A stretch of 64,000 bases of DNA. Origin: Acidimicrobiales bacterium. GTDB lineage: Bacteria > Actinomycetota > Acidimicrobiia > Acidimicrobiales > RAAP-2. Location of the stretch: positions 1 to 64,000 of the forward strand of contig JANXWA010000021.1 in assembly GCA_025351385.1 (NCBI GenBank), written 5' to 3'. Position numbers and translations under genes: made by a program. Under the pieces are notes generated by a model. That model saw only the letters and a list, made by a program, of their open reading frames with translations. It was not told the origin of the DNA and made no database searches. Positions 46,987 to 53,172 of the stretch are shown here, in pieces (the first letter of the stretch is position 1; every line of letters starts with the position of its first letter).

Positions 46987-47772
46987 CTAGCCGACGGTCA
47001 TGCCTCCGTCGACCGCGATGTCGGCGCCGATAATGGCCGACGAGGCCGGCGAACAGAGCCAGGCGATGGACGACGCCACCTCGATGGGCTCGAGCAGGCG
47101 CCCGATCGGCTGCTGGGACGCGAACTCCTCGCCACTCGAGAGGCCGTAGACCTTCGCCGAGGCCTCGAGGAGGGCGGTGCGAGTGGATCCCGGACTGACG
47201 GAGTTGACCGTGACCCCGTGAGGAGCGAGGTCCATCGCGGCGCTGCGCACGAGTCCGACCACGGCGTGCTTGGCGGCGGAGTAGGCGGCCAGGTGGAACA
47301 GGCCGGTGCGGCCGGCCGCCGACGCGACGGCGACGATGCGACCGTTGGCATCGGGGCCGTTGGCGATGAGCGTCGGCGCGGCCGCCTCGATGAGCCGGCG
47401 CGTGCCCAGCACGTTCACCGACCAGACGGCGTCCCATGCGGCGTCGCTGATCTCCCAGAGCGGCGCGCCGCCGGCGACGACTCCGGCGCAGGCGACGACC
47501 GCGTCAAGACGCCCGAAGTGGCGTACCGCGGTCTCGACGGCCAGCTGCATGTCGGTGGCGCTGCGCACGTCGCCGACGAGGCCGAGTACTGCGTCACCGT
47601 GTCGGGTGACCACCCCGTCGAGCTCGGCGGGGGTCGCAAGAGCGTAGGGAATCTCGGGGATGTCGCGACAGCGGTCGACGACGACGACCCGATAACCCTC
47701 GTTCACGAGGACGTCGACCGTGGCTGCGCCAATGCCCCGCGCCGCGCCGGTCACGATGGCGACGCGGCTCAT
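46987..47772 (-). CDS. Mycofactocin-coupled SDR family oxidoreductase
   Basis: A 261-aa short-chain dehydrogenase. The NAD-binding motif VTGAARGIGAATV is near residue 8, the catalytic Ser region is VASAAGRTG, and YxxxK lies in YSAAKHAVV. The start SRVAIVTGAARGIGAAT followed by RVVVVDRC and YALATPAELDGVV resembles the TIGR04504 subgroup, whose NAD is held tightly and re-oxidised by mycofactocin. It overlaps mftD by 4 nt, direct support for that link. The substrate is not known. Confidence 0.85.
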   Translation of the reverse strand: MSRVAIVTGAARGIGAATVDVLVNEGYRVVVVDRCRDIPEIPYALATPAELDGVVTRHGDAVLGLVGDVRSATDMQLAVETAVRHFGRLDAVVACAGVVAGGAPLWEISDAAWDAVWSVNVLGTRRLIEAAAPTLIANGPDANGRIVAVASAAGRTGLFHLAAYSAAKHAVVGLVRSAAMDLAPHGVTVNSVSPGSTRTALLEASAKVYGLSSGEEFASQQPIGRLLEPIEVASSIAWLCSPASSAIIGADIAVDGGMTVG

Positions 47773-48938
47773 CCCAGCCTTCGAAAGAAGTCCGCAGAGG
47801 CCACGACGTCGTCGCGGTCCAGCTCGCTGACGTCCGCCTTGCCCAAGGCGAGCAGAGCCGAGTCGATCCCGCCACGCAGTACGTCAAGCACGTTCTCCAC
47901 CCCGGCCTGACCCTCGGCGGCCAGTCCCCAAAGGTAGGCCCGGCCGATCATGACGGCCCGGGCGCCGAGCGCCAGGGCCTTGACGACATCGCCTCCGCGG
48001 CGCACCCCGCCGTCGAGCAGGACTTCGATCTGGTCACCCACCGCGTCGACGACGGCCGGCAACGCTCGGATCGGCGCCGGGGTTCCGTCGAGGTTGTTGC
48101 CACCGTGGTTAGAAACTGAGAGGGCGCTCGCCCCGAGATCGACGACCCGTCGGGCGTCATCAACGCGGCTGACGCCCTTCACCATGAAGGGACCGTTCCA
48201 CTGGCCGCGCAGCCACGCCACGTCGTCCCAGCTCGGCGGCTCGCTCTGCATCCACTCGTAGTAGGCGCCGAAGAAGGTCGGGGGCTTCTGGCCGGGCAAC
48301 GCCATGTTCGGCGTCGTGAGTGCGGGCAGGTGGCCGGTCCTCGCAAAGGACCAGAACCACCCCGGCCGGGCCAGCACCTCGGGCGCCAGCTTCACGGCGG
48401 CCTTCAGGCCGATCTTGTCCGGAATCCACGGGCTGCCCCAGTCGCGACCGTTCGCGAAGCTCCAATCGAGCGTGAGGATGATGCCCTTGGCGCCCGCGGT
48501 CTGCGCCCGCTCGAGGCGATGGAGCATGGTGTCACGATCCCCCGACCAGTACATCTGGAAGAGGACCTGTCCGTTGACCGCGCAGACCTCCTCGATCGAG
48601 CGACTAGCGAACGAGCTGAGCCCCATCGCGACTCCGCGATTGGCGGCCGCGCGCGCGACCGCCACCTCGCCTTGCGGGTGAACCGCCTGCACGCCGGTCG
48701 GCGAGAGCAGCACCGGCATCGACAGGGACTGGCCCATGACCGTCGTGGCCATGGAGCGCTTCGCGTGGTTGCCCGCCACGTGCGGGGCGAAGCCCAGCTG
48801 GTCGAACGAGTCGAGGTTGTCCCTCGCGGAGAGCCCCTTCTCCGAGCCGGCGACGAGGGCCCCGTAGACGGACTTTGGCAGGCGCGCTTGGGCACGGCGC
48901 TGGGCGACAGCCACAGTCTCGAACCACTTGCTCGCCAT
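47769..48938 (-). CDS. mftD: Pre-mycofactocin synthase MftD
   Basis: 389 aa from the ATG at 48938 (MASKWFETVAVAQRRA). An FMN-dependent TIM-barrel enzyme of the lactate/glycolate oxidase family that oxidatively deaminates AHDP to pre-mycofactocin. LSPTGVQAVHPQGEVAVARA, the catalytic-His segment SNHGGNNLDG, and LLDGGVRRGGDVVKALALGA for FMN phosphate are visible. It lies 58 bp after mftC. A longer upstream frame overlapping mftC was rejected. Confidence 0.94.
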   Translation of the reverse strand: MASKWFETVAVAQRRAQARLPKSVYGALVAGSEKGLSARDNLDSFDQLGFAPHVAGNHAKRSMATTVMGQSLSMPVLLSPTGVQAVHPQGEVAVARAAANRGVAMGLSSFASRSIEEVCAVNGQVLFQMYWSGDRDTMLHRLERAQTAGAKGIILTLDWSFANGRDWGSPWIPDKIGLKAAVKLAPEVLARPGWFWSFARTGHLPALTTPNMALPGQKPPTFFGAYYEWMQSEPPSWDDVAWLRGQWNGPFMVKGVSRVDDARRVVDLGASALSVSNHGGNNLDGTPAPIRALPAVVDAVGDQIEVLLDGGVRRGGDVVKALALGARAVMIGRAYLWGLAAEGQAGVENVLDVLRGGIDSALLALGKADVSELDRDDVVASADFFRRLG

Positions 48939-48996
48939 CGATCCCCCGTCTTGAACCCAACGCGACAATACCCGAGGGGTGGACGACCGTCCTCGG

Positions 48997-50112
48997 CTAC
49001 CTCGCCGAGATCGATACCGGCACCCGACGAGAGTGGTCCGGAGTCGGCGTCGGGCGGTGCACGACGCCCTTGGCCGCGAGCGCCGCCTCGCCGTGGCCAA
49101 AGACGCACTCGGGGTCGGGATCGGTCATCTCGAGACCGGTGAAGACCTTGGCCGCCATGCAGCCTCCGCGACACGCGTCGTATGAGCCGCACGACCCGCA
49201 GGCGCCGGGGCTCTCCGGTTCGCGCAATGACTCGAAGAGCTCACTCCGCGTCCACACCGCGGCGAAACCGGCGTCGCGCACGTTGCCCGCGCGGAACTCA
49301 TCGTGGATGACGAACGGGCACGCGTAGACCTCGCCCACCGGGTCGATCAGGCAGACCACGCGCCCGGCGCCGCAGAGGTTGAGCCCGTCGAGGGGGTCGC
49401 CAAGCGCGGAGAGGTGGAAGAACGAGTCGCCCGTAAGGACCTCGGGCCGCTCCACCAGCCATCGGTAGAGCCGGCGGTTCTGGGCGAGCGACGGGTGCAG
49501 CTCGTTCCACACGTCCACCCCCCGTCCCGAGGGGCGCAGCCGCGTGAGGCGCAGCTGCGCGCCGTAGCCGGCGGCCAGCTGCTCGAACTCGTCGAGCTGC
49601 TCGACGCTCTCGCGGGTCATCACGACCGAGATCTTGAACGGTCCAAAGTCGGCCGCGGCGAGATTGTCCATCGCCCGGCGCGCCGCGACGTAACTCCCGG
49701 TCCCCCGAATGCGATCGTTGGTCAGGGCATCGGCTCCGTCGACGGAGACCTGGATGTCGAGGTAGTCAATGCTGGCGAGTCGCTGCGCGGCGGCGCGGTC
49801 GATACGGGTGCCGTTGGTCGAGAACTTGACGCCGACCCTGCGGTCAACCGCGTGCTCGATCAGCTGGAAGAAGTCGCGGCGGATCATCGGCTCGCCACCG
49901 CCGATGTTGATGTAAAAGACCTTCATGTCAGCGATCTCGTCGATGATCCCGAGAGCCTCCTCGGTCGTCAGCTCCTTCGGGTCACGGCGCCCCGACGACG
50001 ACAGGCAGTGCGTGCACGCGAGGTTGCAGGCGTAGGTCAATTCCCACGTCAGGCAGATCGGCGCGGCGAGGCCCCGTTCGAACCGGTCGCGCAACGAGGT
50101 GTCAGCGCCCAC
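48997..50112 (-). CDS. mftC: Mycofactocin radical SAM maturase MftC
   Basis: 371 aa from GTG 50112, overlapping mftB by 11 nt. The radical SAM motif CNLACTHC is near residue 28, and GGGEPMIRRDFF follows. The C-terminal SPASM region has GEVYACPF and CGSCGSYDACRGGCMA for auxiliary [4Fe-4S] clusters. It decarboxylates the C-terminal Tyr of MftA and then cross-links it to Val. The C-terminal tail after HGEAAL is slightly extended and Pro/Arg-rich. Confidence 0.96.
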   Translation of the reverse strand: MGADTSLRDRFERGLAAPICLTWELTYACNLACTHCLSSSGRRDPKELTTEEALGIIDEIADMKVFYINIGGGEPMIRRDFFQLIEHAVDRRVGVKFSTNGTRIDRAAAQRLASIDYLDIQVSVDGADALTNDRIRGTGSYVAARRAMDNLAAADFGPFKISVVMTRESVEQLDEFEQLAAGYGAQLRLTRLRPSGRGVDVWNELHPSLAQNRRLYRWLVERPEVLTGDSFFHLSALGDPLDGLNLCGAGRVVCLIDPVGEVYACPFVIHDEFRAGNVRDAGFAAVWTRSELFESLREPESPGACGSCGSYDACRGGCMAAKVFTGLEMTDPDPECVFGHGEAALAAKGVVHRPTPTPDHSRRVPVSISAR

Positions 50113-50383
50113 GGAGCATCCCCGACCGATGGAGCGAGCGCAGGGCCCCGGTGTAGCGGCCACGCTCGTGCGCCGGCGCCACCGCTTCGACGGCGTCGTC
50201 GACGCTCTCGAACTCGTCCAGCCGTCGCACGAGGGCCACGAGCTCGGGCGACTTGAGGAACACCAGTCGTCGATTTCCGTGGTGGTAGGCCAGGGCGCCG
50301 AACGACTCGTCGCGAAGTGAGACCTGCTCGGAGAGGGACCAGGGCGCCGACGTGTCGAAGACGCCGGTCGTCGACGTCGTCAC
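50102..50383 (-). CDS. mftB: Mycofactocin precursor chaperone MftB
   Basis: A 93-aa PqqD-like peptide recognition protein from GTG 50383, 3 bp after the mftA stop. VSLRDESFGALAYHHGNRRL and VFLKSPELVALVRRLDEF match the MftB pattern of a beta-strand followed by helices. It presents MftA to MftC. Placed between mftA and mftC, it is certain in context. Confidence 0.93.
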   Translation of the reverse strand: MTTSTTGVFDTSAPWSLSEQVSLRDESFGALAYHHGNRRLVFLKSPELVALVRRLDEFESVDDAVEAVAPAHERGRYTGALRSLHRSGMLRGR

Positions 50384-50386
50384 GGT

Positions 50387-50494
50387 CTAGTAGACCCCGC
50401 AGAGTCCGTCGATGGAGACCTCCTCGACGAGGAGCTCCTCGACCTCTCCGATCTCCACTACCTCTTCATCAGCGATCAACGTCTCGGTCGACAT
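50387..50494 (-). CDS. mftA: Mycofactocin precursor peptide MftA
   Basis: A 35-codon gene read from the ATG at 50494; another ATG lies one codon upstream, and AGGAGG ends 4 nt before the preferred one. The peptide is acidic (MSTETLIADEEVVEIG...) and ends LLVEEVSIDGLCGVY. The usual C-terminus is IDGMCGVY, so Met is replaced by Leu while the essential Val-Tyr pair is kept. Val-Tyr becomes the redox cofactor after MftC, a peptidase (MftE) and MftD act. It is divergent from mftF, sharing a 73-bp intergenic region. Confidence 0.95.
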   Translation of the reverse strand: MSTETLIADEEVVEIGEVEELLVEEVSIDGLCGVY

Positions 50495-50567
50495 CATTCC
50501 TCCTCGGACTCATCCATTCTGTCGCGTGGCGCGATCGACGATCGGCCCATTGTGTCAAACTCGCCCC

Positions 50568-52034
50568 GTGAGCGCACTATTGCCCCTGGCCCCGGCGCCG
50601 ACCGAGGCACCGATCCCCGCAGGGACGCGAGTGGCGCTCGACGAGCACGCGACGTTCCTGGACCGGGACCTGCTGAGTGGCGGGTCGCCCTGGCGGCTGC
50701 TGCGCCTGCCCGGCGGGTCGCGGGTCGTCGCCGAGCGATGGCGAGGCGCCAGCGAAGTCGGCGCCGGCGAGGAGCGGTTCGCGCGCACGCTCCTTCAGCA
50801 GGGCCTGTTGCATCCGGTCCCCCCGCCGCGCGCCGATGTCGATCTGGTCGATGTCGTGATCCCGGTGCGCGACGACGTGGACGGGCTGGCCCGTCTGCTC
50901 GCCGACCTGTCGGGCTGGCACGTCACAGTCGTCGACGACGGCTCGGTCGACCCTGGGTCAGTCGAGGAGTGCGCTCTTCGTTTCGGGGCCTCACCCGTTC
51001 GACTGTCACAGAACCGAGGTCCGGGCAGCGCGCGCAACGCCGGAGTCTCCGCCACGTCTCGACCGCTGCTGTGGTTCCTCGACGTGGACGTAGGTCTCGA
51101 CAGTCCCCTCGACGTGCTCGGCCACCTCCAACCCCACTTCGCCGACCCCCTGATGGGCGCCATTGCCCCACGTGTTCGCGGAGGAGGTGGCCCGTCGGTG
51201 CGGGACCGGTTCGAATTGCGCTTCAGTCCGTTGGACATGGGAGCGCGCAGCGGCCTCGTCGTGGCCGGCGGACCGGTCGCCTACGTGCCGAGCGCCTGCC
51301 TGCTCGTGCGACGCGAGGCCTTCGGTGAGGGGTTCGACGAGTCGCTGCGAACCGGTGAGGACGTCGACCTGGTGTGGCGCCTCCACGACCGGGGATGGCT
51401 CGTGCGCTACGACGCCGACACCGTCGTCGCGCACCGCGCCCGTGCGACGTGGCCGCGTTGGTGGAACCAGCGGGTGGGCTACGGCGCCTCGACCGCCGAG
51501 CTCGCCAAGCGACACGGCGCGCGGATGGCACCGTTGCGCGTCGACGGGTGGACGTTGGCCGCCTGGTCTGCAGTGCTCTGGGGCAAGCCAATAGTCGGGG
51601 CACGCGTCGCCCGAGTGGCCCACGAACGCTTGCGTCGGCGACTGGCATCGACGACCGACGAACCGGGCAAGGTCGCGGGGGCGCTCGTCGGTCGAGGAAT
51701 GGTCGGCGCCGGAGGGCCGCTGGCTCGCGCCGTCGTTCGCACCTACGGCGTCCCGCTGCTCATGGTCGCCCTGCACCCGAGGATGCGCCGACGGGCTCTC
51801 GCCCTCTTCGCCGCGGGAACCACGTGGCGCTGGCGCTCGACGCGGCTGCGGATCACCGATATCCCGCTCGCCGTGGGCGACGACCTCGCCTACGGCTTCG
51901 GCGTGTTCTGGGGTGCGTGGCGCTCCAAGACCCTGGGAGCACTTCGCCCGCACGTCACGAAGTCGACGTTGGGCCTGCGAGAGGTCCTCGGGTTGAAGCC
52001 CCGCGGGATGGACCGCACCCCTAGAAGCGGATGA
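50568..52034 (+). CDS. mftF: Mycofactocin glycosyltransferase MftF
   Basis: 488 aa from GTG 50568. A GT2-family enzyme that adds beta-1,4 glucose units to mycofactocin. The N-terminus holds a PqqD-like part, and the GT-A domain begins at VDVVIPVRDDVDGL. VTVVDDGSVDPGS, the metal-binding LWFLDVDVGLDS and RTGEDVDLVWRLHDRGW are clear. The C-terminal part carries hydrophobic stretches suggesting membrane association. A CAAACT box 6 nt before the start hints at leaderless transcription. It overlaps the convergent dehydrogenase gene by 14 nt. Divergence from mftA-D is unusual. Confidence 0.93.
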   Translation: MSALLPLAPAPTEAPIPAGTRVALDEHATFLDRDLLSGGSPWRLLRLPGGSRVVAERWRGASEVGAGEERFARTLLQQGLLHPVPPPRADVDLVDVVIPVRDDVDGLARLLADLSGWHVTVVDDGSVDPGSVEECALRFGASPVRLSQNRGPGSARNAGVSATSRPLLWFLDVDVGLDSPLDVLGHLQPHFADPLMGAIAPRVRGGGGPSVRDRFELRFSPLDMGARSGLVVAGGPVAYVPSACLLVRREAFGEGFDESLRTGEDVDLVWRLHDRGWLVRYDADTVVAHRARATWPRWWNQRVGYGASTAELAKRHGARMAPLRVDGWTLAAWSAVLWGKPIVGARVARVAHERLRRRLASTTDEPGKVAGALVGRGMVGAGGPLARAVVRTYGVPLLMVALHPRMRRRALALFAAGTTWRWRSTRLRITDIPLAVGDDLAYGFGVFWGAWRSKTLGALRPHVTKSTLGLREVLGLKPRGMDRTPRSG

Positions 52035-53172
52035 CGCCCCGGATGTTCGCGCCCGACTCGAGATCGTCGTAGCCCCGTTGGACCTCGTCGATCGAGTACT
52101 CCTGGGTGACCAGCTCGTCGATCATGAACTTGCCCTCGTGGTGCAGTCGCAAGAGGCGCGGGATCTGGATGCGGGGGGCCTCGGAACCAAAGACAGTGCC
52201 GCGCAGCTCCTGATTCATCATCGAGAACATGAAGAGGTTCAGCTGGACGTCGCGCAGGTTGAACGCGGCCAGCGAGGTGAACACCACGACGCCGCCCTTC
52301 GCGGTGATCGATCGGGCCTCCTCGACAATCTCCCCCGTCGGAGCACCGACAGTGATGATCACGACGTCGCAGTTCTTGCCCCACGACAGGTCCGGCAGGA
52401 TGTTGAACGCGGCGTCGAGCGCGGTGGCGCAGCCGTGGGTGGCGCCGATCTTCATGGCTCGGTCGACCTTCGACTGATTGGTGTCGATGGCGATCACCGC
52501 CCGGGCGCCGGCGTGCACGGCCCCCTGAATCGCCGCCGAACCGAGACCGCCGCAGCCGATCACGGCCACGACGTCACCGGGCTTCACTCCGCCGCGGTTG
52601 ACGGCGGCGCCAAAGCCGGTCGAGACGCCACACGAGAGCAGTGCGGCGGCTCGTAGGTCGTACCACGGCTCCACCCGGATGACCGACGCCTCGTGCACGA
52701 CGATGTACTCGGCGAAGGTCCCGAGCTGACACATGCGATTCAGGTCGACGTCGCCGATGCGGTGGCGCCACGTGCCGTCCGACATCATCGGACCGGCCAG
52801 GGTCCCCGCGGCCATGTCGCAGATGTAGGGCCGGCCCGAGATGCAGTACTCGCACTTCCCGCACGAGGGGATGAAGGAGGTCGCGACGTGGTCGCCGGGC
52901 TTCACCGAGGTGACGCCTTCACCCACCGACTCGACGACTCCCGATCCCTCGTGACCACCGATGATGGGGAACATCGTGGGACGTCCCGAGACCAGCTCGA
53001 GCACGCCCGGGTCTTGGGAGAGGTCGCCGGTCCGCAGGTGCTCGTCCGAGTGACACAGGCCCGAGAAGGCCATCTTGACCTTCACCTCAAAGGCGTGGGG
53101 TTCGTCGATCTCGACGATCTCGGCGTGCCACGGTCCGTGGACTTCGGTCAGGATTGAGGCCTTGACTTGCAT
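52021..53172 (-). CDS. NDMA-dependent alcohol dehydrogenase (mycofactocin-associated)
   Basis: 383 aa from the ATG at 53172. A zinc-dependent medium-chain dehydrogenase: catalytic zinc region SGLCHSDEHLRTGD and IGGHEGSGVVESVG, structural zinc Cys in CGKCEYCISGRPYIC, and Rossmann motif VIGCGGLGSAAIQG. Its sequence fits the Rxyl_3153/TIGR03989 group, enzymes whose nicotinamide is not exchangeable and which pass electrons to mycofactocin (or the dye NDMA). Location beside mftF supports this. Likely substrates are simple primary alcohols. Confidence 0.88.
   Translation of the reverse strand: MQVKASILTEVHGPWHAEIVEIDEPHAFEVKVKMAFSGLCHSDEHLRTGDLSQDPGVLELVSGRPTMFPIIGGHEGSGVVESVGEGVTSVKPGDHVATSFIPSCGKCEYCISGRPYICDMAAGTLAGPMMSDGTWRHRIGDVDLNRMCQLGTFAEYIVVHEASVIRVEPWYDLRAAALLSCGVSTGFGAAVNRGGVKPGDVVAVIGCGGLGSAAIQGAVHAGARAVIAIDTNQSKVDRAMKIGATHGCATALDAAFNILPDLSWGKNCDVVIITVGAPTGEIVEEARSITAKGGVVVFTSLAAFNLRDVQLNLFMFSMMNQELRGTVFGSEAPRIQIPRLLRLHHEGKFMIDELVTQEYSIDEVQRGYDDLESGANIRGVIRF

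Follow-up and report, generated by a model that had tools for sequence, protein, structure and literature searches.

How would a mycofactocin pathway release its peptide core when the gene for the releasing peptidase is missing? According to the available parts of two reports on Mycobacterium smegmatis (PMC7491314, PMC6529628), MftE releases AHDP and MftD deaminates it. The window examined here, by which we mean the whole 64,000-nucleotide stretch of DNA that was analysed, contains a single mycofactocin operon whose mftA-B-C-D-SDR genes lie on the minus strand, as does the gene for an NDMA-dependent alcohol dehydrogenase (ADH); mftF is on the plus strand. Every named gene scored above its curated NCBIfam cut-off. 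The operon order, the divergence of mftF across 73 bp and the convergent ADH with its 14-nt overlap, all of which the original prediction had described, were confirmed from the sequence and these scores.

Table 1 Features of the mycofactocin locus in the window, with profile scores and cut-offs.
Feature	Position	Strand	Support
mycofactocin-coupled SDR	46987..47772	-	TIGR04504 330 bits, cut-off 250
mftD, pre-mycofactocin synthase (FMN dehydrogenase)	47769..48938	-	TIGR03966 669 bits, cut-off 471
mftC, radical SAM maturase	48997..50163	-	TIGR03962 593 bits, cut-off 265
mftB, MftA-binding chaperone	50102..50383	-	TIGR03967 90 bits, cut-off 33
mftA, precursor peptide, core ...SIDGLCGVY	50387..50494	-	TIGR03969 34.6 bits, cut-off 25
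divergent intergenic region mftA/mftF, 73 bp	50495..50567	.	upstream-region alignment
mftF, mycofactocin glycosyltransferase	50568..52034	+	TIGR03965 305.5 bits, cut-off 280
NDMA-dependent (mycofactocin-type) alcohol dehydrogenase	52021..53172	-	TIGR03989 462 bits, cut-off 440

The SDR start overlaps the mftD stop by 4 nt and the gap between mftC and mftD is only 58 bp, so there is no space for mftE in the operon. The mftD gene is the single match over the cut-off in its genome, the second match (273 bits) lying under it. Comparison with locus L088 suggests that the true start of mftC is more likely the GTG at 50112 than the ORF start at 50163. The longest mftF ORF runs from 50412; with the mftF start taken as the GTG at 50568 and the mftA start at 50494, 73 bp lie between the two genes, and the convergent ends of mftF (52034) and ADH (52021) overlap. 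The MftA translation is MSTETLIADEEVVEIGEVEELLVEEVSIDGLCGVY. In many congeners, the aligned regions upstream of mftA share blocks such as CAGAATG and GAGTyTGnCAC, which may be candidate promoter or operator sites.

The genome carrying the window (G000) is a draft of 2.18 Mb in 36 contigs, 97.08% complete and not closed. The MftE model (TIGR03964), which was positive in 9 of 14 control genomes, gave no match at E<=1 anywhere in it; the creatininase family PF02633 gave none at E<=0.01 and, of the accessory proteins, MftG (TIGR03970) gave none at E<=1e-40 and MftR (TIGR03968) none at E<=1e-25. The predicted absence of mftE, mftR and mftG thus held up genome-wide in a 97%-complete draft. The earlier suggestion that release is done by a distant gene or another protease survives in part: a distant mftE is excluded as far as the negative MftE and PF02633 searches of this 97%-complete assembly reach, and another protease is likely. 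MftC had exactly one match at E<=1e-60, so the window locus is not a secondary partial one as far as the draft shows, and we rejected a second mft copy on this ground, within the limit of 97% completeness. As far as the available text of Haft 2011 goes (PMC3023750), MftD and MftE are usual but not universal in the mycofactocin biosynthesis system, and the creatininase family occurs in most but not all mycofactocin species; a published survey, in the portion available, found mftG absent from about 25% of mftC genomes (PMC11778925).

Most of what had struck the original prediction as odd is inherited; the missing mftE is the real feature. The mftF gene diverges from mftA in those genus loci that show both, and lies on the opposite strand to mftC in 13 of 16 loci of other family genera (L176-L191); the three loci of genus g4 have mftF downstream of mftC in the same direction (3/16 outside our genus). 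MftR scored over its cut-off in 27 of the 120 family genomes, none of them in our genus, and MftG in 0/120. Divergent mftF and missing mftR and mftG occur across the genus and in several neighbouring genera; they are therefore ordinary for the lineage, and we rejected them as special features. ORFs that we take to be argS and aconitase often flank the genus mft loci, and ADH also often does so. The eight best named loci by MftC, a listing from which records of the own genome were possibly left out, are 81-84% identical; seven come from MAGs deposited as Acidimicrobiaceae whose isolate names contain palsa or bog, and the eighth is deposited as an uncultured actinobacterium.

The distribution of mftE was counted by hand from listings, both for the family and for the phylum. 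MftC was found at E<=1e-60 in 92 of 120 genomes of the family sample. Among the 32 mftC-positive genomes of our genus, our own included, 26 were without MftE, and the MftE model run over these 26, like PF02633 run over 18 of them, found nothing but a remote creatininase (77.5 bits) elsewhere in the genome of G098. A further congener (G069) has mftE with mftC cut by a contig edge, and it stands outside the 32. In the other family genera, 49 of 60 mftC-positive genomes had MftE over the cut-off, five had weaker or partial matches (G023, G051, G060, G080, G085) and six had none (G014, G030, G032, G074, G082, G083), four of the six being 64-81% complete. The phylum sample comprised 298 genomes of at least 95% completeness, with MftC at E<=1e-70 in 60; we set aside three with MftC of only 325-340 bits (G299, with a weak MftE match, and G392 and G403, with none). 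Ten of the remaining 57 strong mftC genomes were from our family, six of them without MftE. Outside the family, MftE was over the cut-off in 45 of 47 and just under it, at 169 bits, in G217; G310 was the sole genome without an MftE match (E<=1e-20). The gene is therefore missing in 26 of 32 mftC-positive genomes of the genus, compared with 1 of the 47 strong mftC genomes that the phylum sample contains outside our family.

Comparison of locus order in related genomes showed mftD at the place where close relatives keep mftE, and a loss that is clade-wide and apparently recurrent. Gene maps showed that in the genus the slot between mftC and the SDR gene is filled by either mftE or mftD. It holds mftE in L061, L062, L065 and L068; L071 has a contig edge at mftE, and the contigs of L092-L094 open inside mftC and run on through mftE and SDR. 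In all 26 mftE-less genomes of the genus, among them that of the window, the slot is filled by mftD; 24 have no insert there, and two have at least one inserted gene (L070, L088). The L091 contig breaks off inside mftD. The mftE-bearing congeners (e.g., L061, L062, L065) and the sister genera g7 and g10 resemble the window in their divergent mftF, mftA-B-C, SDR and adjoining ADH and argS, but have mftE in the slot after mftC and mftD elsewhere. In genus g14 (L176, L177), the SDR gene comes directly after mftC, with mftD elsewhere in the genome. In g4 the order is C-D-E-SDR-F in G035 and C-D-SDR-F in G083 and G074, and in G051 (G051:C96, L203) the mftE that follows mftD is a fragment aligning to no more than positions 87-224 of the model. 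A motif read by eye from intact MftE sequences, EQHG, was not found in this fragment, which is likely an intermediate of mftE loss in g4.

We also noted two mftE-SDR ends in one draft genome (L092 and L093; G117:C13 and G117:C4), both starting within mftC at a contig edge, which represent either a duplicated locus or an assembly artefact. Some mftC- and mftE-bearing genomes of other genera (e.g., G004, G015, G020, G024, G031, G076) gave no MftD match at E<=1e-60; in others the only matches are lactate-dehydrogenase-like and under the MftD cut-off. The ORF beside or near the distal mftD in L196, L199, L200 (G009, G069, G087) and L209 (G011) is presumably a PIG-L/LmbE deacetylase, and those beside it in L193, L198 and L201 we take to be cytochrome c maturation genes; no conserved peptidase was recognised among the neighbours of distal mftD copies when the ORF listing was read by eye.

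To place these states in a history we used a tree of concatenated MftC, MftF, SDR, ArgS and ADH covering the 45 of 54 loci that had at least three of these five markers. The tree, built with a quick method without bootstrap, contained 23 of the 26 mftE-less genus genomes, and their loci formed one clade (23 rows, SH-aLRT 99). The fewest changes of mftE state on it were three, which suggests three losses: one in the genus clade and two further ones in the family. G074 and G083 are about 70% complete, yet their operons are gapless across the mftE place. The mftD tree conflicts with the history of the other operon genes, as mftD of mftE-bearing lineages falls among the mftE-less ones; a single clade for 25 mftE-less genus mftD copies was disfavoured (AU p 0.017), with long branches and a bootstrap that had not settled. 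Exchange of mftD or long-branch effects could explain this conflict.

The window and every genus locus of L061-L091 in which an MftA core was found have the same core, SIDGLCGVY, with or without mftE, except for Ile in place of Leu in L063 and L075. The core reads IDGMCGVY in other genera, IDGLCGVY in our genus and IDGICGVY in those two loci. An altered MftA cleavage site was rejected, because the core does not differ with mftE and the Met-to-Leu change is genus-wide apart from the two Ile loci. We next defined discriminating positions as residues present in at least 85% of mftE-less genus rows and in at most 15% of mftE-bearing rows. MftB, MftC and MftD had none at these thresholds, which disfavours a specialised form of any of the three; MftF had five, SDR two and ADH four, and the only overlap with the g14 or g4 losses was MftF position 186, in one of two g14 rows. 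With an unchanged MftA core and no discriminating residue in MftB, MftC or MftD, the chemistry before and after cleavage looks unchanged.

The reading that we favour, with good though not full confidence, is that the sole mft locus found in the genome is probably functional, with stable biosynthesis in which one or more general housekeeping aminopeptidases would trim the leader. MftB would present MftA, and MftC would decarboxylate and cyclise the C-terminal Val-Tyr as usual; general aminopeptidases, of which M1 and M17 are encoded, would then trim away the leader, glycine included, to yield AHDP. MftD would deaminate AHDP to pre-mycofactocin, MftF would glycosylate it, and the cofactor would be used by the neighbouring SDR and NDMA-type alcohol dehydrogenase. 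The M. smegmatis ΔmftE mutant, as described in the available sections of PMC7491314 and PMC6529628, continues to produce mycofactocins, though less of them, with glycyl-AHDP forms building up and growth on ethanol being slow; its authors inferred that an unknown peptidase complements the deletion. On the simplest reading, the back-up release route seen in that mutant would now be the sole route here.

M17 had one match in our own genome and was present in 56 of 61 genus genomes, including 18/18 mftE-less and 4/4 mftE-bearing ones in that draw; M1 also had one match in our own genome and occurred in 116 of 120 family genomes. Because both are found in mftE-bearing relatives too, their presence is not specific to mftE-less genomes. 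Two M1 matches were seen in 6 of 7 mftE-bearing genus genomes (G069 counted) and one in 20 of 26 mftE-less genomes, our own included, which is the opposite of a gain of M1. Neither family discriminates the mftE-less state. The M61 glycyl aminopeptidase was found in 0/120 family genomes.

Among the alternatives, a dedicated unnamed peptidase elsewhere in the genome, recruited at the loss of mftE and specific to AHDP release, fares best, though we consider it unlikely. That a divergent clade has stayed without mftE suggests efficient release, and the glycine step is the apparent bottleneck in M. smegmatis ΔmftE, judging from the available text of PMC7491314. The searches argue against it: the MftE model over the 26 mftE-less genus genomes and PF02633 over 18 of them gave only the remote creatininase of G098, and no conserved or replacement peptidase adjoins the operon in the three inserts read (L070, L088, L127). 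These inserts, which lie between mftC and mftD, presumably encode a quinone oxidoreductase, CobQ, and LysR with cell-wall enzymes.

It is very unlikely that the locus is a decaying remnant in which mftE went first and the rest is on its way out. Signs of decay exist in relatives: 14 of 46 genus genomes (our own excluded) yield no match to mftC at E<=1e-60 and none to mftE at E<=1e-3, mftC is in two pieces in G110 and mftD in G100, and mftE is degraded in G051 of another genus. Against this, comparing the window pairwise with up to seven mftE-less congeners, not all of which have every gene, gave dN/dS well under 1 for MftB (0.21-0.29), MftC (0.11-0.22), MftD (0.08-0.14), MftF (0.17-0.27) and SDR (0.08-0.16), values that are approximate because pS is high (0.39-0.67). 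In addition, the MftA core is nearly invariant, and mftC and mftD stand together in 26 genus genomes.

A non-proteolytic release by MftD appears highly improbable. In this scheme the peptide-bound core would be oxidised by MftD at its C-N bond, and hydrolysis of the resulting acyl imine would give pre-mycofactocin and a leader amide; if true, the core would be cut oxidatively from the leader and the keto group formed in the same step, making a peptidase unnecessary. The position of mftD in the mftE slot of the mftE-less genus clade fits the scheme, and the same product would be expected. However, no MftD residue separates mftE-less from mftE-bearing lineages, and two mftE-less g14 genomes have mftD far from the operon. 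In the available text of PMC7491314, moreover, MftD is described as acting on AHDP, and glycyl-AHDP forms accumulate in M. smegmatis ΔmftE despite the presence of mftD. An assembly or binning error, or the assembly rearrangement raised in the original prediction, is extremely unlikely to underlie the missing mftE or the arrangement: although our genome is a 36-contig draft and its relatives are drafts too, in 26/26 mftE-less genomes of the genus mftC and mftD share one contig, in 24 cases uninterrupted by another gene (one of these being a 3-contig assembly, G072, L067), and the flanks are mostly the same.

The locus resembles the Mycobacterium mft cluster (M. smegmatis, M. tuberculosis) in MftA, MftB, MftC, MftD, MftF and the mycofactocin-coupled dehydrogenases, and in the A-B-C-D order given in the available part of PMC6529628, whereas it lacks mftE, mftR and mftG and has mftF divergent from mftA rather than after mftE. 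Like the window, the M. smegmatis ΔmftE strain has every core gene but mftE, and its mycofactocin production is reduced, according to the text available from PMC6529628 and PMC7491314; that strain is a laboratory deletion, whereas the state here is natural and clade-wide. A further precedent is the set of mycofactocin species without TIGR03964 in Haft 2011, where the creatininase family is likewise not in all species, but no clade, slot replacement or repeated loss is given in the portion of that paper available (PMC3023750). Literature searches found no paper describing mftE-less clusters as such, and among papers on uncultured or peatland Actinobacteriota none was listed with the word mycofactocin. 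Clade-wide loss, alternation of mftE and mftD in one slot and repeated loss did not appear in the literature listings found, whose sources were available only in part; the non-universality of mftE was already noted in 2011.

It seems that nature has deleted mftE about three times while retaining the pathway genes. The M. smegmatis ΔmftE work left open the identity of the peptidase that replaces MftE, as far as the available text goes (PMC7491314), and relatives paired with and without mftE offer a direct comparative route to the missing enzyme. In genome surveys, mftE should not be required for calling the mycofactocin pathway present.
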